Virus record (IMG/VR): IMGVR_UViG_3300042865_000219
Span: 1-42,905 of that record
DNA: 42,905 nucleotides
Source of the DNA: a virus
Reading direction: 5' to 3' (one strand)
Shown: positions 23,934 through 38,111 of the stretch, piece after piece
Layout: each line of letters starts with the position of its first letter
Position numbering within the stretch: position 1 is the first letter of the stretch
Program-made: the position numbers and the translations under genes
Notes under the pieces: generated by a model
Databases searched by the model: none
What the model was told of the DNA's origin: nothing
What the model saw: the letters and a program-made list of their open reading frames with translations, nothing else

Positions 23934-24782
23934 CTACGAGACGAACGCGAGCCGATCGAGCTCGAGGCTGTTGATCGCTTTCGCGCGGCGTTCATCAGTG
24001 ATCCGGGTGTAGATCTCGGTCGTCGCAAGGTTCTGATGCCGCAGCAGCACCTGAACTGTTCGGAGATCGACGCCGGCCTCGACGAGTGCGGTGCCGAACC
24101 AGTGCCGCAAGCTGTGCGCCGAGCCGGGAACGCCGGCGCGCAGCATCACTTCTTTGATCGTCGACGAGATCGACTCGCGCCGCTGATGCCCCTGATCCGA
24201 ACCGGGGACCCAGAAGCCCTTCGCCGGCATCTCATAGACCAGCGTGGCGACGCGCCGGTGCAGCGGCAGCACAGCCTTGACCGCGCCCTTACCGACGACG
24301 GTCATCGACTGCTCGGCGAGGTTGAAGTGATCGGCCTTGATCTTCGCGATCTCATGCACGCGCAGCCCTTGGAACGCCGCGAGGGTGATCATCGCCCTGG
24401 TGCGGCGGTGCATGCGCGTACGCAGCAGCCGGCGCAGGTCGGCGTCGCTGATCGGGTGCGGCTCGCCTTTGCGCCGGCGTGGACTGTCGATCTTGATCAT
24501 CGGGTTGTCGTGGCGGTGCTCGAGTCGCTGCAACCACACGAACCAGGAGTTCAGTGCTGTGTAGTACGTCCACCGGGTGTTCGGCGACCAGCCGCCGGCG
24601 GCGAGCCACGCGATCAGGTCGGCGGTGTCGACCGACTCCGGTGCAGATCCGACGCCGTCGGCCATACGCAGCACGATCGCCGCGCGGTCGTCGACGGTGC
24701 GTTTCGAGAGTCCTTTCGCGTACTGCCAGATCTGCCACGCTTCTACTAGCCCCTGTTTGCTCATAACGTCAGGTTCCAGCAT
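23934..24782 (-). CDS. int: Tyrosine integrase
   Basis: A 282-residue site-specific recombinase. The N-terminal SAM-like core-binding domain (residues ~8-90) is followed by the catalytic domain with Arg141 (GLRVHEIA), Lys165 (GKG), His223 and Arg226 (HSLRH), His249 (LLRHQNL) and nucleophile Tyr258 (TTEIYTRI), so all catalytic residues are present. The start at 24782 lacks a clear ribosome site; Met7 is an alternative. It is read leftward, away from attP, which lies about 115 bases upstream of its start. It inserts the phage into a host tRNA gene. Confidence 0.95.
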   Translation of the reverse strand: MLEPDVMSKQGLVEAWQIWQYAKGLSKRTVDDRAAIVLRMADGVGSAPESVDTADLIAWLAAGGWSPNTRWTYYTALNSWFVWLQRLEHRHDNPMIKIDSPRRRKGEPHPISDADLRRLLRTRMHRRTRAMITLAAFQGLRVHEIAKIKADHFNLAEQSMTVVGKGAVKAVLPLHRRVATLVYEMPAKGFWVPGSDQGHQRRESISSTIKEVMLRAGVPGSAHSLRHWFGTALVEAGVDLRTVQVLLRHQNLATTEIYTRITDERRAKAINSLELDRLAFVS

Positions 24783-25047
24783 CTAGCCGTGGCGCGGATC
24801 ATTGTGGCCGGTTCGACGCTTTGCTGTGTCTGAATCATCACGACGCGCATCGAAGACGCCCCCTGTATAGGTAACCGGAAACCGTGGTTTCGTGCGCCTT
24901 GTAATGAATAGGGCCGGGGTTCGATTCCCCGAGGCGGCTCTCACGTATCGCGGTTAGTCGGCGGCGCAGTTCGGCCGGCTCGAGGAACGCCGGCGTCGGG
25001 TTAGTGGCCGGGCGGATCCCGGCCGGGATGGTGGTGGTTACGGCGGG
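24783..25047. other. Integration region without genes
   Basis: This gap between integrase and repressor-like gene holds the attP core. It also has a GAAACC-GT-GGTTTC palindrome at 24878-24891 just outside the core, and three similar sites GCGGTTAGTC (24950), CGGGTTAGTG (24997) and CGGGTTAGGC (25044) on the other side that could be integrase arm-binding sites. No credible coding sequence is seen. Confidence 0.55.
24898..24940 (+). other. attP: attP core matching the 3' half of a tRNA-Thr (TGT) gene
   Basis: From the anticodon loop CTTGTAA (anticodon TGT) the sequence runs through the anticodon 3' stem TGAAT and a perfect T-arm (CGGGG-TTCGATT-CCCCG, 24915-24931) to the acceptor 3' strand AGGCGGC. 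The 5' half of the tRNA is missing: the bases before the loop do not pair. This is the pattern of tyrosine-integrase phages that integrate in a tRNA gene and restore its 3' end. The amino acid identity rests on the anticodon and the acceptor sequence. Confidence 0.8.
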
Positions 25048-33921: not shown

Positions 33922-34045
33922 CGCACCCCTGACCCCTGGCTAGGTGACCCATGTCACCTTTCCTTCCGTCTCTCGAGGTGCATAGGCGATTTTCACACAC
34001 GGAACGAAAACGTCGTTCCGGCAGTCTTACCGAACCGGAGACTAG
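33922..34045. promoter_or_regulatory. Regulatory gap upstream of the DNA-modification operon
   Basis: Two inverted repeats lie here: AGGTGAC-CCAT-GTCACCT at 33942-33959, followed by a pyrimidine-rich stretch and so possibly a terminator, and CGGAACGA-AAACG-TCGTTCCG at 34000-34020, a candidate operator. TTTTCACACAC precedes the second. The start codon at 34046 has GGAG eight bases upstream, within ACCGGAGACTAG. Confidence 0.5.
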
Positions 34046-34585
34046 ATGACCAGCACGACCGGCGAAACGCCGTCTAGCGGCTCGCTGGGGGCCATTAAAC
34101 GCCTGCCGATCGCCGACTTGAGCACTGTTGAGGGCAATCCTCGGCGTGGTCAGGTCGATGTGATCGCCGAGTCGCTGCGCGTGAACGGGCAGTATCGGCC
34201 GATCGTGGTGAACGCCGGCTCGCTGACCGGCCGGCGCAACGAAGTGCTGGCCGGTAATCACACGATGCTCGCCGCGCGGCAACTCGGCTGGGCCGAGCTC
34301 GACGTGTTCGTCGTCGATGTCGATGAGGAGTCGGCGCGGCGCATCGTCGCGGTGGATAACCGGTCGGCGGATCTCGGTAACTACGACTCGCACTTGCTGC
34401 GTGATCTGCTCGAGTCGCTTGAAGATCTCGACGGCACTGGTTACTCGGATGCGGACTTGAAGGCGTTGACTCGGATCACTGAGGATCCGACGCCGCCGAC
34501 GGACTTTCCGACGTTCGATGAGGATCTTGCGACTGCGTATTGCTGCCCGAAGTGCGGGTATGAGTGGTCGGGTCAGCCGAAGTAG
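34046..34585 (+). CDS. ParB-like nuclease-domain protein of the modification operon
   Basis: A 179-residue protein (ATG 34046). GNPRRGQVDVIAESLRVNGQ, YRPIVVNAG and VLAGNHTMLAARQLGW form the ParB/Srx N-terminal domain (CTP/ATP- or DNA-phosphate-acting fold), here with VDNRSADLGNYD and a C-terminal YCCPKCGYEWSG zinc knuckle. ParB-like proteins often accompany phage DNA methyltransferases and modification genes. It may guide or regulate the modifying enzymes or act as a nuclease. Its stop overlaps the methyltransferase start by one base, tying it to the operon. Confidence 0.8.
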   Translation: MTSTTGETPSSGSLGAIKRLPIADLSTVEGNPRRGQVDVIAESLRVNGQYRPIVVNAGSLTGRRNEVLAGNHTMLAARQLGWAELDVFVVDVDEESARRIVAVDNRSADLGNYDSHLLRDLLESLEDLDGTGYSDADLKALTRITEDPTPPTDFPTFDEDLATAYCCPKCGYEWSGQPK

Positions 34586-35649
34586 TGAAGCCTGCGTATC
34601 GGGTGCCGTCGATGGGCGAGATCCGGGCGATCGAGCCGACTGGTTTGGTTGCTGCGTCGACGTTTTCGGGCTGCGGCGGGTCGAGCTTGGGTTATCGGAT
34701 GGCCGGCTTCTCGGTGCGGTACGCCAACGAGTTTGTTGAGGCTGCCCGCGATACTTATGCGGCGAATCAGTCGCCGGCGACGTTCCTCGATGACCGGGAT
34801 ATTCGGACGGTGGCCGGTGCTGAGATCTTGGAGCACTGCGGCGGGTCGATAGATCTGCTGGATGGGTCGCCGCCGTGCGCGGCGTTCTCGACTGCCGGTA
34901 AACGCCATGAGGGTTGGGGCAAGGTTAAGGGCTACTCGGACACCGAGCAGCGCGTGGATGACTTGTTCTTTCAGTTCGCGCGGATTGTTCGGGAGACGCA
35001 GCCTCGGGTGTTCGTCGCCGAGAACGTGTCCGGGCTTGTAAAAGGCTCGGCGAAAGGCTATTTCAAACTTATTTTGGCTGCGCTGCGTGACTGCGGCTAT
35101 CGGGTTGAGGCGAAGCTGCTGAACGCGGCGTGGCTGGGTGTGCCGCAGGCGCGCCAAAGGTTGATCTTTGTTGGTGTGCGCGCCGATCAGGGTTTCGATC
35201 CTGTGTTTCCGTCGCCGCTGCCGTATCAGTATTCGGTGCGCGATGTTATGCCGGCGGCGGCGGTCGAGCCGATCGAGGTTGATCCGGAGACGGGCCGCGA
35301 GATCACGTTCTATCAGCACGCGATCTACCCGTTCTGGCTGCGCCTGGGCCGGGGTGAGTCGCCGAAAGCGAAGAAGTTCAACCTGATCAAGGTTGATCCG
35401 GACAAGCCGTCGCCGACGATCTTCGCCGCCGGCGGCAACGTCGGAATACCGGGGCCGACGCACTGGGACACGCCGCGCAAGTTCACGCTGCTCGAGGTTC
35501 GCCGGCTGTGCGGCTTCCCTGACGACTTTGTTCTGACCGGTTCGTACGCGAAACGCTGGGAGCGTCTGGGGCGTGCTGTGCCGCCGGTAATGATGAGCCA
35601 CATCGCGGCGTCGCTGCGCGATGAGCTCCTGGCGTGCGTGCCTGCCTGA
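34585..35649 (+). CDS. DNA cytosine-C5 (carboxy)methyltransferase
   Basis: A 354-residue protein from GTG 34585. All core motifs of C5-cytosine methyltransferases are present: motif I FSGCGGSSLGYRMAGF (27-42), motif IV GSPPCAAFS with catalytic Cys98, motif VI ENV (146-148), motif VIII QARQR (188-192) and the target-recognition region before LLEVRRLCGFPDDF. Motif X reads ERLGRAVPPV, with Arg330 where nearly all relatives have Asn (GNxxPP). In engineered M.MpeI a basic residue here (N374K) allows use of carboxy-SAM. Followed directly by an amidotransferase and a CmoA homologue. I infer carboxymethylation of C5; plain methylation is the alternative. Confidence 0.9.
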   Translation: MKPAYRVPSMGEIRAIEPTGLVAASTFSGCGGSSLGYRMAGFSVRYANEFVEAARDTYAANQSPATFLDDRDIRTVAGAEILEHCGGSIDLLDGSPPCAAFSTAGKRHEGWGKVKGYSDTEQRVDDLFFQFARIVRETQPRVFVAENVSGLVKGSAKGYFKLILAALRDCGYRVEAKLLNAAWLGVPQARQRLIFVGVRADQGFDPVFPSPLPYQYSVRDVMPAAAVEPIEVDPETGREITFYQHAIYPFWLRLGRGESPKAKKFNLIKVDPDKPSPTIFAAGGNVGIPGPTHWDTPRKFTLLEVRRLCGFPDDFVLTGSYAKRWERLGRAVPPVMMSHIAASLRDELLACVPA

Positions 35650-37010
35650 TGTGCGGGATCCTCGCCGGCTTCGATCGGAGCCTCGACCCGTCAAGGTTGG
35701 CGCATCGCGGCCCGGACGCGCAGCGCAGAGTGACCGTCGGTGCGGTGACGCTCGGGCACACCCGGCTGGCGATACAGGATCCGCAGCCGCGCTCGGATCA
35801 GCCGTTCACGTTCGGCGATGTCACGCTGGCGTTCAACGGGGAGATCTTTAATCACCGCGAGCTTCGAGGCCGGTTCGATCACCGGTGGCTCACCGAGTCG
35901 GACACCGAGACACTTGCTGTCGGTTTGGCGTCGATGGGTGCGGACTTCTTGCCGCTGATCGACGGAATGTTCGCGGCGGTGTGGGTTGATGAGAACGAGC
36001 CCGACGTGTTGCACGCCGCGCGTGATCGTCAGGGCGAGATCCCGCTGCACTTGTCGACGCACCCGACGGTCGTTGTGTCCTCGGAGCGCAAAGCACTCGA
36101 CGCGACCGGTAAGGCTGTTGTCGACATCGGGGCGGGAACGTATAACCGGATCACCGCGACCGGCATGAAGACGCACCGCTGGCACACGTTGGAGGCTGCG
36201 CCGGCCGGCGCGACGCTCGAGGAGTCGGCGGTGCGGATCCGGCTGCTACTTGAGCAGGCTGTCGCCGCACGCTCGATCGCCGATGTGCCTGTTTGCACGT
36301 TGCTGTCCGGCGGCATCGACTCGGCGATCATCGCGCTGCACTTGAAGCAGATCGTCCCGGATCTGGTGTGCTACACCGCGCGGCTGGATCCCCGGTCGCC
36401 GGATCTGATCGCCGCGCGGCTTGTCGCCGAGACGATCGGCGCGCCGCTGATCGAGGTCGATGTTCCGCCGCCGACGGCCGATGACCTGTCGGAGGTTGTT
36501 CGGGTGATCGAGCAGCCGTCGAAGGCGCAGACCGAGATCGGGTGGGCTTGTTTGCAGTTAGCGCAGCGCATCGACGATGACGGATTCAAGGTGACGTTCT
36601 CCGGGGAGGCGTCCGACGAACTGTGGGGCAGTTACGAGATGAGCTACCACGGCATCAGGCAAGAAGGCTGGTACGGCTACCGGCGGAACTTGACCGCGCG
36701 GCAGGCGTCGAAGAACTTTCCGCGCGTGAACAAGGTGTTCATGGCGCACGGCGTTGAGGCGCGTCTGCCGTTCTGCGATCCGCGCGTCGTCGACTACGCG
36801 CTGTCCCTGCCGGAGCACGCTGTGCGTACCGGTAAGGACGCGAAGTCCCGCAAGGCGATCTTGTCGCGCGCGTATTCCGGTGCGCTGCCGGCGGCGATCA
36901 CTGACCGGGAGAAGGTGGCGTTCCAAACCGGTTTGGGGTTGTCGAAAGTGATCCCGGTGCGAGATCCGGCCCGCTATTACAAGGCCGAGTTCAGGCGCAT
37001 GTATGGCTGA
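35649..37010 (+). CDS. Asparagine-synthetase-like amidotransferase (candidate DNA amidase step)
   Basis: A 453-residue class II glutamine amidotransferase starting MCGILAGF, so Cys2 becomes the N-terminal nucleophile. RGPD (20-23), NGEIFNH (63-69) and SDTET (84-88) form the glutaminase site. SGGIDS (220-225) is the ATP-pyrophosphatase loop, and SGEASDELWGSY (318-329) completes the synthetase site. E. coli AsnB is longer (554 residues). AsnB adenylates a side-chain carboxylate and turns it into an amide with ammonia from glutamine. In this operon the substrate may be a carboxymethyl group on cytosine in DNA. It overlaps both neighbours by 1 and 8 bases. Confidence 0.85.
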   Translation: MCGILAGFDRSLDPSRLAHRGPDAQRRVTVGAVTLGHTRLAIQDPQPRSDQPFTFGDVTLAFNGEIFNHRELRGRFDHRWLTESDTETLAVGLASMGADFLPLIDGMFAAVWVDENEPDVLHAARDRQGEIPLHLSTHPTVVVSSERKALDATGKAVVDIGAGTYNRITATGMKTHRWHTLEAAPAGATLEESAVRIRLLLEQAVAARSIADVPVCTLLSGGIDSAIIALHLKQIVPDLVCYTARLDPRSPDLIAARLVAETIGAPLIEVDVPPPTADDLSEVVRVIEQPSKAQTEIGWACLQLAQRIDDDGFKVTFSGEASDELWGSYEMSYHGIRQEGWYGYRRNLTARQASKNFPRVNKVFMAHGVEARLPFCDPRVVDYALSLPEHAVRTGKDAKSRKAILSRAYSGALPAAITDREKVAFQTGLGLSKVIPVRDPARYYKAEFRRMYG

Positions 37011-37716
37011 CATCGCGGACAGGTTCCCGGCCGGCGGCTGGGAGTTCACTCCCGAAGTGACCGAAGTGTTCGACGAGCACGTCCGCGCGAGTGTCCCGTA
37101 CTACGACGACATTCAGGCGATGGTCGCCGAGTTCTCCGATTGGCTGCTGCCGAACAACGGCTGCTTCGCCGACCTCGGCGCGTCAACCTGCACGACGCTC
37201 GAGACGATCTGCGCGCGGCACCCGAACCGCCGGATCCGCGCCGAGCTCTACGACGAAGAGCCGTCGATGCTTGAGCAGGCCAAGCGCAAGACCGCCGGCT
37301 TGAATATCCTCGCGAACTTCCACAACCAGCGGTTGCAGCAGCCGTTCAAGCACACGAACGCCGACCTGACCGTCGCGCTGTTCACCTTGCAGTTCCTGCG
37401 GGAGCAGGATCGGGTGCAGGTGCTCGCCGAGGCGTGCCGCTGCTCGGCTCCGGGCGGGGCGATCGTGCTCGCCGAGAAGATCCGCCCGCAGAACGCGCTG
37501 CTCGCCGAGATCGCGATGGACGCCTCGCACGACTTCAAAGCTGCCGCCGGGATCTCCGACACCGCGATCCGCTCGAAAGCGCGCGCGTTGAGGGGAGTGC
37601 TGATGCCGCAGTCGATGAATCAGTTGATCGGCCAGTTGTATGAGGCCGGCTGGCACGGCGTCGATGTGGTGTTCCGCTGGCATCAGTGGGTCATCGTGAT
37701 CGGCTTCGCGCGGTGA
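37003..37716 (+). CDS. cmoA-like: CmoA-like carboxy-S-adenosylmethionine synthase
   Basis: A 237-residue SAM-binding protein closely following E. coli CmoA along its length: WEFTPEVTEVFDEHVRASVP, DLGAS at 57-61 (CmoA DLGCS), DEEPSML (CmoA DNSPAM), LFTLQFL (126-132; CmoA NFTLQFL), AEK and HDFK (176-179; CmoA HDFK). CmoA condenses SAM and prephenate to Cx-SAM. The carboxylate-binding Arg199 of E. coli aligns one place from Arg194 here (KAR versus KRS); Asn132 is Leu. No CmoB (tRNA carboxymethyl transferase) is in the window, so the product probably feeds the DNA methyltransferase. A general methyltransferase is the weaker alternative. Confidence 0.8.
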   Translation: MADIADRFPAGGWEFTPEVTEVFDEHVRASVPYYDDIQAMVAEFSDWLLPNNGCFADLGASTCTTLETICARHPNRRIRAELYDEEPSMLEQAKRKTAGLNILANFHNQRLQQPFKHTNADLTVALFTLQFLREQDRVQVLAEACRCSAPGGAIVLAEKIRPQNALLAEIAMDASHDFKAAAGISDTAIRSKARALRGVLMPQSMNQLIGQLYEAGWHGVDVVFRWHQWVIVIGFAR

Positions 37717-38111
37717 ACGAGTTGTCGCAGCGCGTGCTGCAACTGTTCCTCGCCGGCGCGACGTTCCCGCAGATCGCTTCGGCGGTCGACGTCGACGAGA
37801 AGAAGGTGACCGACATCGTCGCGGCGGCGATAGAGGACTCTAGTTCGCGTCGTGCGCTGCTGATGCAGAACGCCCGAGCGATACATCAGGAACGCACCGA
37901 GGCCCTGTTTAAGGCGCACTGGGCACCGGCTTTGCGCGGCGATCACCGATCGGCGGAGATCTGCCGAAGGATCCTTGAGCGTCAGGCGCAGCTGCTCGGC
38001 GTCGCGGCGCAAGTAATGGAAGGCGACTCTGTTGACGAGATCGCGGCGCGGCGCGCTGCTCGGCGAGCAGGCACCACCTCGGGTTCGTCACGCGCCAAAC
38101 GTCCGGGCTAA
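37713..38111 (+). CDS. Terminase small subunit
   Basis: A 132-residue protein from GTG 37713, overlapping the CmoA-like stop. N-terminal LSQRVLQLFLAGATFPQIAS has a helix-turn-helix for recognition of packaging sites; a coiled oligomerisation part follows (RTEALFKAHWAPALRGDHRS). The basic C-terminus overlaps the large subunit gene by 80 bases in another frame. Confidence 0.8.
   Translation: MNELSQRVLQLFLAGATFPQIASAVDVDEKKVTDIVAAAIEDSSSRRALLMQNARAIHQERTEALFKAHWAPALRGDHRSAEICRRILERQAQLLGVAAQVMEGDSVDEIAARRAARRAGTTSGSSRAKRPG

Follow-up and report, generated by a model that had tools for sequence, protein, structure and literature searches.

Described systems of Cx-SAM-dependent DNA modification

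The CmoA/CmoX/CmoY pathway of Synechococcus phage S-B43, in which carboxy-S-adenosylmethionine (Cx-SAM) is used to form 5-carboxymethylcytosine (5cxmC) in DNA and the latter is converted to a glycyl amide, has been proven (Yang et al., Nat Commun, December 2025, PMC12783734). In this system the methyltransferase SpCmoX holds the carboxylate through Arg350, with the wild-type enzyme accepting only Cx-SAM and not S-adenosylmethionine (SAM), the ligase SpCmoY attaches glycine, and SpCmoA is ten times faster than Escherichia coli CmoA (2.33 versus 0.23 per second). The same study reported 5,615 CmoX candidates, noted ParB neighbors of unknown role, found that 5cxmC blocks HhaI, and delineated a second cluster of ligases with a glutaminase domain, which were predicted to use ammonia and were not purified (PMC12783734). 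The pathway as such, namely carboxymethylcytosine, the arginine, the amide ligase and the glutamine-dependent subtype, is thus already published. Here we analyze a related four-gene operon at positions 34046-37716 of a 42.9-kb viral DNA with a GC content of 63-66% (IMG/VR record IMGVR_UViG_3300042865_000219, positions 1 to 42,905, the whole of which is termed the window below). A first-pass annotation had interpreted it as a DNA hypermodification operon based on Cx-SAM, an interpretation that is supported as right in outline, partly proven elsewhere for homologs, and no longer new. What is new is an exchange of the capping ligase among close relatives at one exact slot.

Like the S-B43 system (L005), the window combines adjacent same-strand genes for CmoA, a C5-cytosine methyltransferase with an SPPC motif and a motif X arginine, and a ligase of the AsnB superfamily with a Lys/Glu pair, and its chemistry is predicted to be the same up to 5cxmC. 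It differs in gene order (ParB-CmoX-ligase-CmoA, beside the terminase), in sequence (CmoX about 41% and CmoA 26% identical), and in its ligase, which at 453 rather than 271 residues includes a glutaminase domain and has ammonia instead of glycine as the predicted donor. The domain layout of this ligase is that of the glutaminase-bearing second cluster of Yang et al. (A0A7T0Q3R0, PMC12783734), to which it can be assigned by domain architecture. The cultured Streptomyces phage TurkishDelight (L004, gp121-125) shows the same order of ParB, methyltransferase, ligase and CmoA, with a ligase 55% identical to that of the window, but it carries an additional ParB-like gene, and its 93.6-kb genome is a different one. 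The engineered M.MpeI N374K (cited in PMC12783734) is comparable in that a basic residue in place of the motif X asparagine lets a C5-methyltransferase use Cx-SAM, although it is a CG-specific laboratory variant without a ligase. E. coli AsnB (PDB: 1ct9) shares the fold and the glutaminase and ATP-site residues of the window ligase, but has Val320/Arg324 where the latter has Lys292/Glu296, and acts on free aspartate rather than DNA. Finally, the 7-deazaguanine cluster of Achromobacter phage Motura (L257) also places an AsnB-like amidotransferase within a phage DNA-modification cluster, but one with QueC, QueE and Tgt homologs, and its AsnB-like protein lacks the Lys/Glu pair.

Operon architecture and predicted pathway

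All four open reading frames (ORFs) named in the first-pass annotation exist on the plus strand, match the expected families, are intact, and appear translationally coupled by tight overlaps. The overlaps themselves had been recognized earlier, with two start codons requiring correction. The ParB-like gene (34046-34585) is followed by that of the predicted CmoX-like DNA cytosine C5-carboxymethyltransferase (34585-35649), whose likeliest start is GTG 34585, in a 1-bp TAGTG overlap, and whose conserved part runs from Lys9 onward. The gene for the predicted glutamine-dependent amide ligase, a glutaminase-bearing CmoY (35649-37010), begins at ATG 35649 in a TGATG overlap, which puts the catalytic cysteine at position 2, and the gene for the predicted Cx-SAM synthase CmoA (37003-37716) begins at ATG 37003 with an 8-bp overlap. 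A small-terminase-like ORF and then the large terminase (TerL) at 38032 follow, in agreement with the earlier placement of the operon just before the terminase; this position, from which modified virion DNA had been deduced, does not by itself establish such modification. The same gene set, a search for which had been proposed, was found again in cultured phages and in over 100 viral contigs, and the four-gene arrangement is therefore not a product of chance.

Taken together, these comparisons make it very likely that the window carries a self-contained operon for hypermodification of the phage's DNA, of the CmoA/CmoX/CmoY kind and the glutamine-dependent subtype. CmoA would convert SAM and prephenate to Cx-SAM, and CmoX, its motif X arginine binding the carboxylate, would put the carboxymethyl group on C5 of cytosine, presumably within a short sequence context for which no motif can be inferred from sequence. 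The AsnB-like ligase would then use ATP to adenylate the carboxyl group and glutamine-derived ammonia to amidate it, giving the neutral 5-carbamoylmethylcytosine, and the ParB-like protein would help the methyltransferase on DNA. Family comparisons and the published biochemistry of the homologous system (PMC12783734) bear out the earlier assignment of the CmoA and CmoX steps: both reactions, the recognition by arginine and the attachment of glycine by the short ligase have been demonstrated for homologs. The amidotransferase step of the first-pass annotation is favored by family comparisons of the glutaminase and ATP-site residues, with 5-carbamoylmethylcytosine as a predicted product. Modified virion DNA and a biological benefit to the phage may follow from such a pathway. 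The operon provides a compact instance of a subtype whose product is predicted, and slot swapping makes the question of its side chain testable.

A swappable ligase slot between CmoX and CmoA

The nearest relatives of the window are syntenic for ParB, CmoX, CmoA and both small and large terminases, with identities of 67-89% for TerL and 78-87% for CmoA. In the window, L011/L012 and L013/L015, gene content differs solely between the end of CmoX and the start of CmoA: this slot holds the glutamine ligase in the window, a stand-alone 262-residue ligase in L013 and L015, and nothing in L011 and L012, where emptiness is judged within the recovered stretch, so that a ligase might lie elsewhere in the genome and short contigs may inflate the count of loci without one. 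DNA homology is lost within the final codons of CmoX and returns at the start of CmoA. The window itself sits in a four-row CmoX clade (Shimodaira-Hasegawa-like approximate likelihood ratio support of 99) that holds all three ligase states. Across a CmoX tree of 119 rows, the three states need 26 changes as against a mean of 40.8 upon shuffling, and counting only the starred branches still gives no fewer than 7 changes for the glutamine type and no fewer than 11 for the short type. The same pattern appears in the S-B43 clade, where L079 combines a glutamine ligase with a CmoX that shares 79% identity with the proven SpCmoX.

These observations lead us to favor, with some confidence, the proposal that 5-carbamoylmethylcytosine is a natural, as yet undetected DNA base, and that in this phage lineage a swappable ligase cassette at a fixed slot decides the final side chain, be it a free carboxylate, an amino-acid amide or a simple carboxamide, against a constant background of CmoX and CmoA. 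Such swapping is the pattern expected if modification-sensing host defenses select for side-chain change. The natural variants with no ligase, the short ligase and the glutamine ligase could provide a comparison set for the effect of the side chain on restriction and on modification-dependent defenses.

The amide ligase and the predicted side chain

The ligase unites GATase_6/7 (1e-25) and Asn_synthase (2.9e-45) domains (Pfam), and its AlphaFold model (predicted local distance difference test score, pLDDT, of 91.2) has E. coli AsnB (PDB: 1ct9) as its top Foldseek match. Its glutaminase site, with Cys2, Arg39, Asn63, Glu65 and Asp85, corresponds to Cys1, Arg49, Asn74, Glu76 and Asp98 of mature AsnB; Glu65 is present in 24 of the 26 glutaminase-type homologs and the other four residues are invariant. 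The ATP site is likewise kept, with a PP-loop of the form SGG-D-S, and so are E320, D323, E324 and K422; in the glutaminase-type homologs the equivalents of AsnB Glu348 (25/26), Asp351, Glu352 and Lys449 are retained, whereas the short ligases lack those of Glu348 and Lys449. In contrast, Lys292 and Glu296 are invariant in both types (26/26 glutaminase-type and 22/22 short ligases, 48/48 together), while at these columns E. coli AsnB has Val320/Arg324 (mature numbering) and the Motura protein has Asn/Asp. Since the two types diverge at other positions, the shared Lys/Glu pair suggests a shared carboxymethylcytosine substrate and makes a simple candidate marker of ligase activity on this base. 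A role as an aspartate-using AsnB did not hold up, the curated score being too low and Lys/Glu standing in place of Val/Arg.

The alternative that survives best, albeit as an unlikely one, accepts the same pathway but has the ligase attach another amine, such as an amino acid or a polyamine, with a vestigial or regulatory glutaminase and a product other than the simple carboxamide. The proven relative occupying the same slot, SpCmoY, does use glycine, and beta-lactam synthetase and carbapenam synthetase, AsnB-fold enzymes that make no use of ammonia, are among the fold matches of the ligase. However, drifted relatives such as beta-lactam synthetase are without a working glutaminase, whereas all 26 homologs here retain the Cys, Arg, Asn and Asp of the glutaminase site, and the authors of the S-B43 study also infer ammonia (PMC12783734). 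We accordingly retain amidation by ammonia as the preferred reading of the ligase step.

It is very unlikely that the operon is broken or unexpressed and the DNA left unmodified: as a viral contig of metagenomic origin the window leaves some room for this reading, but its four intact frames, tight translational overlaps and catalytic residues speak for a working system.

The CmoX-like methyltransferase and its coupling to CmoA

The methyltransferase matches the C5-methyltransferase family PF00145 (5.9e-53, Pfam), and its top match in the PDB is Cx-SAM-bound SpCmoX (PDB: 8yf3, 1.5e-65). It has an SPPC motif with Cys105 and, in agreement with the first-pass annotation, an arginine at the motif X position, Arg337, which aligns with Arg350 of SpCmoX (both residue numbers of the window protein count from GTG 34564 and not from the likelier start GTG 34585). 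The association of this arginine with CmoA was tallied, in loci rather than independent events, on sets fetched only by CmoX similarity or only by the ParB tail described below, an earlier mixture with loci fetched by CmoA and ligase having been dropped. Among the 63 non-redundant tail-fetched loci, CmoA lies next door in 55 of 58 with Arg-type methyltransferases and in none of five with Asn-type ones (p = 8e-6; four of the latter were scored by script and L245 was read by eye), and ligases were found only beside the Arg type. The loci fetched by CmoX similarity give a comparable picture, with CmoA accompanying 69/76 Arg-type and 0/3 Asn-type enzymes (p = 0.0015). This co-occurrence provides independent backing for the structure-based rule linking a motif X arginine to use of Cx-SAM.

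The above patterns render highly improbable the view that the window merely carries an ordinary phage 5-methylcytosine methyltransferase that came to lie by chance beside metabolic genes, i.e. an auxiliary asparagine synthetase and a methyltransferase. C5-methyltransferases linked to the ParB tail, with the motif X Asn and without CmoA, do exist (L194, L195, L223, L229, L245 and L246), but the window enzyme has Arg, which co-occurs with CmoA, and wild-type SpCmoX with the same Arg rejects SAM. The window ligase, moreover, departs from AsnB at Val320/Arg324 and has the Lys/Glu pair of the proven DNA ligase family. Action of CmoA and the methyltransferase on RNA such as tRNA is hardly credible, for even though E. 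coli CmoA serves tRNA modification and the PHROGs label for phage CmoA reads 'tRNA methyltransferase', no CmoB homolog was seen among the operon genes and the methyltransferase is nearest to the proven DNA carboxymethyltransferase (1.5e-65) and far from the DNMT2-type tRNA methyltransferases (only 7e-6).

In Staphylococcus phages (L007:4980-7498 and L008:4980-6679), CmoA adjoins a C5-methyltransferase with Gly (VGGVINQ) rather than Arg or Asn at motif X, perhaps another route to admitting Cx-SAM. Metagenome-assembled genomes of Verrucomicrobiota (L147-L163) contain multiple ParB-CmoX-CmoA copies per genome with no ligase nearby.

The CmoA homolog

The last gene of the operon encodes a class-I methyltransferase that recovers E. 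coli CmoA (PDB: 4gek) at 9.7e-22 (phmmer) and the NCBIfam model TIGR00740 at 108.8 bits (3.3e-31), as against 115.6 bits for the proven SpCmoA. Several points nevertheless weigh against assigning the window to a complete Cx-SAM pathway with an amidating ligase. Its CmoA misses the TIGR00740 equivalog cut-off of 193.3 bits, as SpCmoA does too, shares only about 26% identity with either of the proven enzymes (E. coli CmoA and SpCmoA), and carries Ala193 where the E. coli enzyme has Arg199, the residue that forms a salt bridge with the carboxylate. Its ligase falls below the NCBIfam equivalog cut-offs (249 versus 267 bits for TIGR01536, and 238 versus 499 bits), and the glutaminase-bearing subtype is unassayed, the published attempt having given insoluble protein (PMC12783734). 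Further, a 115-kb contig (L103:4989-6413) has a glutaminase-type ligase with the Lys/Glu pair and a radical SAM protein and thymidylate synthase as neighbors, and no CmoX was found in its recovered 115 kb; this ligase may act on another carboxylated base.

The NCBIfam cut-offs were rejected as a diagnostic, since the proven SpCmoA and SpCmoY also fall below them. E. coli Arg199 was likewise rejected as a test of Cx-SAM synthesis because SpCmoA, proven and highly active, has Glu at this column; both SpCmoA and the window protein have Arg197, one helical turn on. Among 114 CmoA homologs, Arg occurs at 197 in 62 and at 193 in 17, and the alignment raises the possibility that the carboxylate-binding arginine has shifted by one helical turn. 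In three actinobacterial host genomes, no CmoA above the family cut-off was found beyond hits inside prophage loci, which were the sole strong ones. Given this lack in the hosts, a phage of this kind would need its own CmoA.

CmoA proteins 53-56% identical to that of the window also occur beside ParB and a ParB_N-fused protein of 511-555 residues (L003:1-3952, L115:2249-6714 and L120:3044-6711, the first being the complete 61-kb Gordonia phage Evaa), and CmoX is absent from these three records. The fused protein (phrog_5475, family unassigned) has a Rossmann-like DFGAGH...FEP motif and is possibly a Cx-SAM user other than a C5-methyltransferase; a preliminary search for N6/N4 Cx-SAM candidates found none (PMC12783734).

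The ParB-like protein

The first gene of the operon encodes a protein with a ParB_N match (3.7e-6, Pfam), and its AlphaFold model (pLDDT 86.7) has structures of ParB with CTP as top Foldseek matches (E 3e-7), indicating that the ParB-CTPase fold is present. Its Box II reads GNHT rather than GxxR, and the Arg of the latter is required for binding of nucleoside triphosphates in tested relatives (PMC12704722); a canonical nucleotide switch was rejected on account of this missing arginine. A C-terminal tail (F..DEDIETxHxCPKCGYEWSG; window 34505-34585) is conserved while the remainder often falls to 25-45% identity, and its CPxCGYxW core is a candidate zinc knuckle or docking tail. A C5-methyltransferase adjoins 78 of the 79 tail-bearing ParB loci, the remaining locus being cut by a contig end. 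The tail occurs with both Arg- and Asn-type methyltransferases, the latter without CmoA or ligase, and a role of ParB as a pathway enzyme was rejected on this ground. As it travels with C5-methyltransferases irrespective of whether Cx-SAM is used, the ParB-like protein is probably a general accessory of these enzymes and not a step in the chemistry.

Genomic context

Elsewhere the window encodes tail, lysis, recombination, terminase and portal functions as well as an integrase-like protein. A nucleotide search of the phage collection returned only terminase and portal scraps, with Mycobacterium phages, and found no near-identical cultured phage, while a PADLOC scan gave only generic methyltransferase and HNH matches. 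Upstream of the operon, a perfect 8-bp inverted repeat (CGGAACGA-5-TCGTTCCG, 34000-34020, no strand assigned) is a weak candidate for an operator, and it was not found in the relatives L011 and L015. The leader at 33960-34045 shares GCATAGGCGA-TTTCACACACGG and AGTCTTACCGA with L011, a possible conserved control region. A tyrosine integrase gene (23934-24782, minus strand) adjoins tRNA-Thr(CGT) (24858-24940), suggesting that the window likely derives from a temperate phage whose attachment site is linked to a tRNA.

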